NCBI RefSeq assembly: GCF_036785885.1
Contig: NC_092310.1
Span: 6,324,001-6,388,000, forward strand
Length of the DNA: 64,000 nt
Origin: Coffea arabica
Lineage: Eukaryota > Streptophyta > Magnoliopsida > Gentianales > Rubiaceae
Direction: 5' to 3'
Below are positions 14,256 through 57,597 of the stretch, one piece after another; position 1 is the stretch's first letter, and each line of letters opens with the position of its first letter. The position numbers were made by a program, and so were the translations under genes. A model generated the notes under the pieces. It was not told where the DNA came from. It ran no database searches and was given only the letters and a program-made list of their open reading frames with translations.

Positions 14256-14397
14256 ATACTTGCTTACCTGGATGGGGTCGATGGGCGATCAAGAAGGCTC
14301 ATGGCTTAGGTAGGTGGCCTCCATTGCGCCTTGGAGGGGCGCCTGCCAACATCATAATTTGTTGCAGTGGGAGCCTGCGTTCGCGCGGTTCCTGCCC
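14256..14397 (+). pseudogene. U1 snRNA pseudogene, b-type, stem-loop III lost
   Basis: Recognisable U1 from the 5' end through stem-loops I and II, the Sm-site region ATAATTTGTTG and stem-loop IV with CCTGCGTTCGCGCGG. It has a 4-nt insertion in the splice-site-pairing leader (ATACTTGCTTACCTGG), and the stem-loop III segment is deleted. A TATA-like TATACAAA sits 30 bp upstream, but no USE is present because the upstream DNA is shortened compared with sister units. Probably not functional. Confidence 0.8.
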
Positions 14398-14698
14398 GAT
14401 CCTCATGATACAAATCTTTATGAACAATTTATTTTCTGTTGAACAGTTTCTGAGAGTCTGAGATATATTTTTTGTTAAAAGGAAATTACCAGATAATTTA
14501 TTGATCCTATGTCTCTTTAACTCAAGATGTCAAGCGTTTATACTCAGACATCAATCAGAAAACTCAGTCTAATGCTAGGATAAATCCATAGAAGTTCAGT
14601 TTTGTCCGAGTTTGTGTAGGTAGACAACGATATTTCATGTTTTGAATTTTACGGCCTAAAATTTTTGAATACACCGATAACATATGCAATATCACCGT

Positions 14699-14781
14699 CG
14701 CACATTTAGTATATACACCACCGCCGTTAGATTCATGTTACATTTAGTATATATATCATCGTCATTAGATTCATAGCACAT
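14699..14781. repeat. Two-copy tandem repeat of about 41 bp
   Basis: The unit ACATTTAGTATATA plus a CA/CG-rich stretch and TTAGATTCAT is repeated with a few changes. It is not found at the matching place in the other units. Confidence 0.7.
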
Positions 14782-53678: not shown

Positions 53679-56257
53679 TGATACGATTCTCAGTACATCA
53701 AGACGAATCGAGAACGTGAACCACAAGTTCTGGATCTAAATTAGGGTATAACGTTTGGGGATGGATGTCTTAATCTATCTTGGACTGCTCAAAAGAAAGA
53801 TTAACACGGGTAGAATGACGCCACAATCAAAATGAATATTTGATTAATAAGTCGATGAAGCACCTTAGGCCAATTCTAAGATGTTCAAGAATGGTTTTCA
53901 CAAACCAAGAGAGCTCTTTCTCACAGGGAAGAATCTGAAAATTTTCTCAAATATTATTCACCTGTGAAAAATGTTAAAAACTAAGGCATATTTATTACCT
54001 TTTATACGACCCAACTTCTAATCAAACTAGAACTCAATTAACTAAATATTAACTACTAAGAATGGACTCTTAAAATTTGGCCAACATGGCATTAATATGG
54101 CTTACTATGGTTAACATGACCTTAAGCCAATTATTTCCATCAACTAATGACTCACTAATTCCAAACTAATCACGGATTAATTGGAAATTTGCTAACAAAA
54201 TATTGACACTAACAATTGTATGTGACAGCCCCACCTTCCCCTAAGGCGAACCAAAGGGTTTGGCGGACCGTCTGCCTAACTCTCGCCAGGACTCGATCGC
54301 TCTCATCAAGTGAAATAAGATATAACCTCGAGACTAAGCGAAAAACAATTCCCAAACTTGAAACATAGACTTACATTCATATCCATCTCAAACAGAAATA
54401 CAATCCCAATTAGAACAAAAGCTTTAAGTTTTTACTACATCCAACCTTATCCAAGCACTAGTGCAAGAACAATAAAAAAATAAAATTTCAAAAAAAACTA
54501 GACCAACCTAGCCTGCACAGGACTCATGCCCTCACACGCATCCCCTGTAAGGAAAACAAAGCTAACGGAATGAGTTAAAAGCCCAGTGAGGTTCCATACA
54601 TATAGCCAAATAATTAAACAAGGACATTAATCATGTAATAACAAGTAATCCAGAAAACATTTACAATATAAAGTAATGATAATACATTCATTAAAAGGAT
54701 ACATGCTCACGTGGAGCCCTTCGTTCATTCATTCCACCAAGCATTTTCTTATTCCTCCAGCATTAAAAATAATTTCATTTGTAAGTGAAAACCCTTCCAT
54801 TGTTCTTGTCATTCATTCATTCATTTCATTTTCCCCCTACTGGACACTGGCCAGTCTCCACCAGATTTCGTGGTCATACTCCTGTATACCAAACATTAAC
54901 CCAGGGTCACCAATCGCCCGACTGAGTCCGCTTCTGGCTCGAGTCGATCGGCAACGAAGAGCAAGGGCCCAGTTCAGCCAAAAGACTTACATTCGTGTAC
55001 AAGTAGTATTTAAACATTTAATTATTTAATCATTGTAAATTTCATATTCGTTTAGGTTGAGCGCGATAAAGTACACACTCGCCTAGAAAAATTCATTTTT
55101 AGAAATCATTGAAAACATTTAACATTTAATCCAACATTTACAAATAGTCACATAGTCACAATAATTCACATAGTCATTGGAAACATAACGTACAAAGAAC
55201 ACTCATTTATTTAAGCAAAATAACGTCCAAAGTTTCCTTCTGGATAATACCCTCAATCACCAAGGAACCCTAATAATAACCAAGAGAAAATATTACGGTT
55301 AAACTATCCAAAGTTTAGGTGAACTAAAGAAAATCCGAATAACTACTAGTACAAAGTATAAGTATAGTTTTGGAAGTGAAAAGAGTACATTTAAACCAAA
55401 GGACATGAGTAAAATATTTGTAAAACTTATGCTCGCTCGTAAAACTTTGGAATCTCCATTTGAGTCGAAGAACGAAAAAAACGTATTTCTATTAGTCGTA
55501 AATTTCATTTTTTCAAGGATACAAGTTTCGGCCAGATTCTAACTTATATTCCTCTAATAAAGAAGATTTGAATATCTTAGATGATTCAAGTTAGTTTCAT
55601 CCTCAACCCTTACTCAAGTCACGAGTACATCTACCTAACCCTCGAGTGCAAATTTGGGCAGCATGCCCTTTGTATTTACCTATTTTCCAGCCATTTATAG
55701 CTTCATTATTTTCCTCAATTAACCCCCAAAATCACCCACAAATAATCTCATTACAATAGCCGTTCAATAGGCTAAAAGTCATTCCGTTAACTTTGTTTTC
55801 CTTACAGGGGATGCGAGCGAGGGTGTGAGTCCTGTGCAGACTAGCTTGGTCTAGTTTTTTTTGAAATTTTATTTATTTTTATTGTTCTCGCGCTAGTGCT
55901 TGGATAAGGTTGGATGTAGTAAGAACTTAAAACTTTTGTTCTAATTGGGATTGTATTTCTATTTGAGATGGATATGAATGTAAGTCTATGTTTCAAGTTT
56001 GGAAATTGTTTTTCGTTTGTCTCGAGGTTATATCTTATTTCACTTGATGAGAGCGATCGAGTCCTGGCGAGAGTTGGGCAGGCGGTCCCCCAAACCCTTT
56101 GGTTCGCCTTAGGGGAAGGTGGGGCTGTCACATTGTAAAGCTAAGCCAAACTAACAACTACAGGAAACGACACTTGACTTGATGATCAACAACCTGATGA
56201 TCGCAAATTCGGTCCAAACAACTTGAACTACTTCATTGCTGGCTAGATTCCCTATCA
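53679..56257 (-). mobile_element. Solo LTR (fossil) split by a nested element
   Basis: Starts TGATACGATTCTCAG and ends CCCTATCA. The flanks GGGCT and AGGCT correspond to the GGGCT duplication of the LTR at 23108-23766, so this is the same insertion inherited by duplication. About 667 bp of LTR remain once the nested element at 54221-56132 is removed. Confidence 0.8.
54221..56132. mobile_element. LTR-like fossil with inverted ends, 1.9 kb
   Basis: Both ends carry the same roughly 340-bp sequence facing inwards: TGTGACAGCCCCACCTTCCC at 54221 and its inverse ending at 56132. A 5-bp repeat TTGTA flanks it (54216-54220, 56133-56137). The empty site is in the sister LTR near 23640. TG...CA ends and a 5-bp duplication are LTR-like, yet the ends are inverted, not direct. 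Interior stretches (GTTAAAAGCCCAGTGAGGTT; GCGATAAAGTACACACTCGC) are shared with 57828-61551. No coding frame. Confidence 0.7.
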
Positions 56258-56732
56258 AGGCTAGGTAGAGATTGGGCTTATATATGAGACCCAATTTAAA
56301 TGTGAGCCAAGTTTTGACTTCATTATATTTAGCCCCAATTAACGCTTAGTCAAAATAATTATATGTAATAAAGTATATACTTAATAATCATATTAATATA
56401 GTTTGTAATATATATGTATATATATATCAAAGTAATAAGATATAATGTGATATTTATATCGGTGTGTAGACAAAATTATGTGATAATTGTGTGCTAATAG
56501 GTCGAAAATCCTAATGTTTTTGTGAGCTGAGTATGCACCCCACAAGGTAAGTCCAAAGCCTGAAATTTTTTACTTTAGCCTTTTTTAGGATACGTTAAGT
56601 TTGAACTTGTCAAAACCTAACAAAATCTAACTCAAAAAATCCAGTTGACAACTCTACCGACATACCTCATATGTCATATCACAAGTTTAAGGCAGTTCGA
56701 AGTGCTTATAAAAAGCTATTTCTGGGCAAAAT

Positions 56733-57597
56733 ATACTTATCAAAATGGAGTCAATGGGTGATTATGAAGATGGCTTAGGTTGGTGACCACAGAGCAGTGC
56801 TAGTCCATGATAGGAATGGCAACAGGACAGGTTTAGGGCGGGGTCCGCCGTCCTGTTGCCCAATACTTCTCGCTGCCCCCATCCCCCGCTGCTCCTGCCC
56901 CACCCCACTTCCCTCGCAGGTGCCCCCGCAGAGTTAATAAAAATTTATTATTTAATTTTATTGTAGTCAAATTTTTGCAAATAATTAAGTACTAAAATAT
57001 CAATACATTATCAAATCATTATCCATTGTAATTTTACAATTGAAACTCATAAAAACAATCAAACAAAAACTATTTGAATACAATCCAACATGATGAAACA
57101 AATATAACTAAAGTAATCAAGTTTTCATTTTTAAAATAAATACAATCACTAAGTCGCTATTGTATTTTTTTTTTGAGAAAAAATGTGCTATTATATTAAG
57201 TATAATTAGGAATTTAGTATAAATGTATTAGTAAATTTACTATAAGTAATTAATAATTTCTATTAGTATACATGTATAATTATTAGTATAATTGACAATA
57301 TCAATTATATTACATATACTAATATACATTATATAATACTTATAACTAACAATATCATTATTATAAGTTTGTAACTAATTAAATTAAATATTATGCTCAC
57401 ACACACACACACACACATATATTCTAACAGGTGGTGGGGCGATGGTTTCTTAATGAGGGGAAATAATTCCCCCCTGTCCCATTAGCCTCTGCGGGCACCC
57501 GCCCCAATTGCCATCCCCAGTCCATGGCCTCCTTAAGTGGGAGTGCCATAGTCATAATTTTGCTCACAAGGGCCTGTGTGCACATAGCCCTTACACA
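56733..57597 (+). pseudogene. U1 snRNA pseudogene, c-type, split by a hAT insertion
   Basis: Parts at 56733-56810 (leader ATACTTATCAA, stem-loop I, GGCTTAGGTTGGTGACC) and 57520-57597 (stem III CTCCTTAAGTGGGAG, CATAATTTTGC and a decayed stem IV). Same break point and same inserted element as the copy at 24218. TATAAAAAG lies 26 bp upstream. Confidence 0.78.
56811..57519. mobile_element. hAT non-autonomous element, 709 bp, sister of 24296
   Basis: Starts TAGGAATGGCAACAGG and ends (reverse) TGGGGATGGCAATTGGGGC. Flanks GTCCATGA and GTCCATGG. It is shorter than its sister at 24296-25207 because of an internal loss on the right side. A CA microsatellite lies near 57396-57417. Confidence 0.83.

Follow-up and report, generated by a model that had tools for sequence, protein, structure and literature searches.

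A tandem array of U1 snRNA genes and pseudogenes in Coffea arabica that very probably turns over by birth and death

In the excerpted text of the Arabidopsis survey (PMC545797), U1 snRNA is represented by 14 copies, 10 of them likely active; seven clusters combine a U1 gene with a U4 gene at a distance of 180-300 nt; and tandem duplications are named for U2 and U5 and none for U1. Plant snRNA genes transcribed by RNA polymerase II (Pol II) are described, in a source likewise used in excerpt, as having their USE and TATA elements separated by four helical turns (PMC9845283), and a 3' box has been given as CA(N)3-10AGTNNAA in the excerpted text of another report (PMC5079582). Here we describe a U1 locus in Coffea arabica in which live-type and dead copies lie side by side. 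The window that was analyzed comprises 64,000 nucleotides, C1:6324001-6388000; C1 and C2 are taken to be homeologous chromosomes from the two parental subgenomes. The literature searched, including U1 snRNA in combination with Coffea arabica, contained no published report of this array.

The initial annotation of the window had reported eleven U1-like copies on one strand, and their number, coordinates and orientation all proved right (Table 1, where the copies are named in window order). A cmscan search of the window against Rfam 15, the check that the annotation had itself proposed, gave eight U1 (RF00003) matches that exceed the gathering score (69.5 bits), and every one of them is on the plus strand. 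Five copies score 143.7-146.1 bits, and these are the five that had been called genes; three more score 91.1-100.7 bits. The weakest three (q1, q2 and q3) are absent from the Rfam matches in the window even at E 0.1, and were added by BLAST with one U1 copy as query, in pieces of 41-50 bits. When the window was shuffled 20 times with a first-order Markov model, the best U1 match reached 25.6 bits, below the scores of these remnants, and the flanks of the remnants align to one another at 82-90%; all 11 copies are therefore U1 homologs.

Table 1. U1 copies and promoter elements in the window (position 1 is the first base of the window)
Feature	Position	Strand	Description	Rfam score (bits)
b1	14260..14395	+	U1 pseudogene	91.1
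a1 promoter	16403..16452	+	USE core TCCCACATCG 16403-16412; TATAAA 16447-16452; gap 34	
a1	16478..16638	+	U1 gene, live type	145.5
h promoter	18421..18468	+	USE core 18421-18430 (GTCCCACATCG including the preceding base); TATAAA 18463-18468; gap 32	
h	18494..18654	+	Recombinant U1 gene	145.0
q1	24218..25248	+	Decayed U1 remnant (BLAST), pieces 24218-24273 and 25212-25248	
b2	31864..32024	+	Full-length U1 pseudogene	96.0
a2 promoter	34961..35010	+	USE core 34961-34970; TACAAA replacing TATA at 35005-35010	
a2	35036..35196	+	Weakened U1 gene	143.7
q2	38770..38878	+	Decayed U1 remnant (BLAST)	
b3	41394..41554	+	Full-length U1 pseudogene	100.7
a3 promoter	45897..45945	+	USE core 45897-45906; TATAAT 45940-45945; gap 33	
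a3	45971..46131	+	U1 gene, live type	143.7
a4 promoter	51338..51386	+	USE core 51338-51347; TATAAA 51381-51386; gap 33	
a4	51412..51572	+	U1 gene, live type	146.1
q3	56750..57560	+	Decayed U1 remnant (BLAST), pieces 56750-56788 and 57524-57560	

The array is larger than the roughly 43 kb first estimated. It runs beyond the window, with further C1 copies at 6398960 (b5) and 6449497 (h6), and ends at C1:6449656, a span of ~111 kb that was examined on both sides of C1:6438001-6447996. A parallel array lies on C2 from 7120213 to 7244847 (~125 kb). The genome-wide list holds at least 42 U1 matches, of which 19 belong to the two arrays and 23 lie outside them (b1, at 91.1 bits, is missing from it). 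Between C1 and C2, identity is 94.1-97.5% in blocks of at least 400 bases, kept only if above 94%; it is 96.0-96.5% in the stretch of the LIN-like gene that adjoins the array, whose identification in the initial annotation is borne out by PF23568, PF23628 and U-box matches. Self-alignment of the window shows that there is indeed a repeated unit, although its order is better given as b-a-q than as the b-q-c originally proposed, with h as a single recombinant copy. The unit is complete in b2-a2-q2 and partial elsewhere, and like copies are irregularly spaced, 5.4-18.6 kb apart. Judged by the state of the copies, each unit appears to hold one live-type gene (a) and two dead copies (b and q). There is no U4 match within the window up to E 0.1, and no U2, U4 or U5 within 1 Mb of the array among the 38, 18 and 19 matches listed.

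We consider it highly probable that this is a U1 snRNA cluster that has grown by segmental duplication of a composite unit and is turning over by birth and death. The reading starts from direct observations: the copies themselves, their promoters, the flanks they have in common, and gains and losses that differ between the homeologs. The segment duplicated would have been a dead b gene together with a live-type a gene and a dead q remnant. With the USE and TATA box as promoter, Pol II would transcribe the a and h copies; the transcripts would be processed at a 3'-box-like signal and the RNAs assembled into ordinary U1 snRNPs, so that array copies and dispersed U1 genes would make up one pool. 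Each copy, being redundant within such a pool, would be free to decay, duplicate or recombine.

The five a and h copies of the window all carry the 5' leader ATACTTACCTG, the U1A loop ATTGCAC and the Sm site. They also have a USE core that matches at 10 of 10 positions, lies at -73 to -75 and is separated by a gap of 32-34 from a TATA-like box at -31; the first letter of the USE consensus RTCCCACATCG is G in h and T in the four a copies. In USE and TATA spacing they match the plant Pol II snRNA gene type. Of the features that had been ascribed to these five copies, those just named are all there, except that TATA is replaced by TACA in a2. To call the five intact was nevertheless generous. Besides its TACA, a2 has two changes (G28A and G34A) in loop I, which is the contact for U1-70K, and a3 and a4 each have a single broken stem pair (C88A and T23G, respectively). 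The TACA of a2 is not decisive alone since several dispersed U1 copies also have loose TATA boxes, and some dispersed copies vary in loop I too. In a1 loop I carries A33G, and 44 of 45 stem pairs are kept. Further bases that distinguish single copies are G16A in a1 and C84G in a4. The consensus of the a and h copies is equaled by none of the 11 copies compared. Downstream, a1, h, a2 and a4 have CATCTCTAGTTGTTAAAT, which is only a loose fit to the published 3' box; the 3' flanks of the window a and h copies read CATCTCTAGTT...AAAT, which is near the consensus but inexact.

Five dispersed U1 copies, at C7:5922486, C8:5699638, C22:46722121, C21:31150080 and C21:31206026, have an altered end of the Sm site (AATTTGTT or AATTTGTA). 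The USE core is 10 of 10 in four of them and 9 of 10 in C21:31150080. Judging by these sequences, they are possibly further variants or decaying copies.

The b copies are in a different state. The initial annotation had set b2 apart from the pseudogenes as a full-length variant, a distinction that does not hold: b2 is of the same class as b3, and 9 of its 17 changes break pairs (12 of 25 in b3). Taking either homeolog, b2 and b3 have 9-13 pair-breaking changes. Their USEs are damaged (8 of 10 in b2, 7 of 10 in b3), b5 is without a TATA box, and the leader is altered in b1, b2 (A7G) and b3 (C4A). The b1 copy, which is present on C2 as well, is 25 nt shorter and keeps 32 of 45 pairs; it has no snRNA promoter (USE 5 of 10), and its similarity to the other copies begins ~10 bp upstream of the RNA. 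Since the changes common to b2, b3 and b5 (G12C, T94C and G137A) break pairs, the ancestor of these three was dead already; b1 is without G12C, which places it outside that part of the b-class history. The RNAs of b2 and b3 differ by 11.2%. Outside the RNA their divergence is 5.9% far upstream and 9.4% in the promoter; on the downstream side it is 7.7% over 400 bases, with 18.6% in the first 60.

After these tests of promoter, pairing and divergence, we give a low probability to b2 or b3 being a functional variant. By the pairing rules, A7G in U1 would face C at position +2 of the 5' splice site. The b2 lineage has kept its full length on C1 and C2 alike; that it continues to be produced at a low level, its A7G favoring GC-AG introns, is an idea to which we give hardly any credence. 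The two b2 homeologs differ at 1 of 161 positions, which is below the flank expectation (p 0.036, uncorrected, in one of four b pairs).

Are the live-type copies under constraint? Among eight a-type copies, which include three homeolog pairs, diversity is 1.3-4.9% in the RNA and 5.2% over the USE block. Upstream, the remaining part of the 240 bases is at 8.9-12.5% and sequence farther out at 19-25%; downstream it is 12.8% in the 40 bases after the RNA, and then 17-39%. The low diversity in RNA and USE implies long-term constraint on both. Concerted evolution, in which gene conversion homogenizes the a and h RNAs while their flanks drift, would produce a similar contrast, and seems to us rather unlikely. 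It would explain why a copies differ by 2.5-3.1% in the coding region whether they differ by 8% or by 23% far upstream, and why h and h6 have a promoter different from the a type and a nearly identical RNA; h is a recombinant copy, and C157T is common to h and the C2 copy of a3. Conversion tracts, however, fit less well than selection with diversity that jumps right after the 3' end of the RNA and dips over the USE, and the b copies have not been rescued. Between h and h6, differences number 4 in 160 in the RNA vs. 6 in 568 in the flanks (p 0.24).

Comparison of homeologs bears on constraint since C1 and C2 separated. Substitutions (RNA vs. flank) were: four a/h pairs, 12/642 vs. 224/8973, ratio 0.75, p 0.43; four b pairs, 18/619 vs. 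268/10397, ratio 1.13, p 0.60; seven dispersed pairs, 23/1131 vs. 657/16660, ratio 0.52, p 0.0007. If anything these ratios are too high, because flanks were counted on alignable stretches only. The array pairs omit a1, h and a5 (for which an intact homeolog is lacking), and of the three a2 copies on C2 a single one represents all; on the dispersed side 17 of the 23 listed matches were examined, 14 of which form the seven pairs, the three without a partner in hand being omitted. Of the changes that fall on paired sites, 7 of 10 disrupt the pair in array a and h copies and 1 of 8 in dispersed copies (Fisher p 0.025, on small numbers). In an unrooted tree the 19 array rows fall on one side of a branch and 17 dispersed rows on the other (support 94/86).

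Since the a and h copies show no clear constraint after the homeolog split, the array may be a declining locus and not a functional source of U1. In the extreme case it would be functionally finished already, with the dispersed genes supplying the RNA and all array copies, a and h included, evolving freely. We regard this as possible, though not likely. The ratio of 0.75 beside 0.52, the excess of broken pairs and the lack of any a or h copy equal to the consensus all point that way. Against it, all 13 a and h copies inspected, in the window and elsewhere in the arrays, have an undamaged leader, U1A loop, Sm site and USE core; the array and dispersed coding:flank counts, contrasted directly, do not differ significantly (p 0.24); the array ratios are among those raised by the counting of alignable flanks; and when two one-base deletions are excluded the broken pairs become 5 of 8 vs. 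1 of 8 (p 0.12). Small as the numbers are, they hint at faster decay of U1 copies in the cluster than of dispersed copies.

Turnover is most visible where the two arrays differ. The counterpart of a1 on C2 is interrupted, at U1 positions 55-59, by a 5,336-bp insertion with identical 359-bp terminal repeats and a 5-bp target duplication, and this is a young LTR element. The a2 gene is tripled on C2, each unit being 1,148 bp long, and the 2,276 bases that repeat with this period contain 1 mismatch (a window fixed at 1,148 bases overruns the end of the repeat in the third copy, with 206-207 mismatches). No copy of h was found at the syntenic position of C2. The 5' flank of h is like that of h6 (94.9% over window positions 17834-18720) and its 3' flank is a-type (positions 18490-19190 match the a2 region at 85.8%), which makes h a recombinant copy, an h6-like 5' flank joined to an a-type 3' flank. 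Finally, the C1 counterpart of the upstream flank of a5 stops ~200 bp before the gene and gives way to other sequence, and there is no U1 match on C1 at that place; a5 has probably been lost on C1.

Near-identity such as that of the C2 a2 units is what would result if one or two U1 loci had been falsely duplicated during assembly, and the initial annotation had named an assembly artefact as grounds for rejecting the array. The assembled sequence itself largely answers this concern. Far-upstream flanks among the a copies of the window differ by 7.9-23.2%, the units carry different insertions, the other homeolog has a matching array, and there are no Ns. We therefore consider an artefact extremely improbable.

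Several other insertions lie in the window. A 3.4-kb insertion on C1 (~19191-22593) has a target duplication of ~9 bp, and C2 has the empty site. Inside the last q unit, an element at 54220-56133 has inverted ends of ~358 bp (94%) and a 5-bp target duplication. Another, at 47679-48770, has inverted ends of ~197 bp (93%) and a 9-bp target duplication, and from its form we take it to be Mutator-like; it encloses an ORF (47963-48433) that, we presume, recalls a plant MFS/nodulin-like protein, and for which there was no Pfam match at 0.001. Beside a4, a C-terminal fragment of a hAT transposase lies on the minus strand (52168-52524).

The birth and death of live-type and dead copies that the initial annotation had proposed is supported by these comparisons, gains, losses and pseudogenes all differing between the C1 and C2 arrays. 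One allotetraploid thereby shows, side by side, birth, recombination and death among copies of an essential RNA gene: duplication of a mixed live and dead unit, a recombinant gene, a gene recently hit by a transposon, a triplication at one locus and what is probably a loss. This is clear but ordinary gene-family turnover, a worked example rather than a surprise.

How does the coffee array compare with known systems? Like the Arabidopsis U1 set, as excerpted (PMC545797), it is multi-copy, has USE and TATA promoters and includes likely pseudogenes. Unlike Arabidopsis U1-U4 clusters, it has no U4 match in the window or, among the 18 matches listed, near the array. Fish snRNA clusters, in the excerpted reports (PMC4696792, PMC3464664), have likewise been studied as evolving multigene families of clustered snRNA genes, with concerted or birth-and-death evolution in view; coffee differs from the animal clusters, as excerpted, in its irregular spacing of 5.4-18.6 kb and in a unit where apparently dead copies outnumber live-type ones two to one. 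Human variant U1 genes, in the excerpted text (PMC5159530), resemble the coffee case in that U1-like copies occur beside standard genes, whereas b2 and b3 of coffee, going by sequence alone, are set apart from such variants by their 9-13 pair-breaking changes and damaged USEs.
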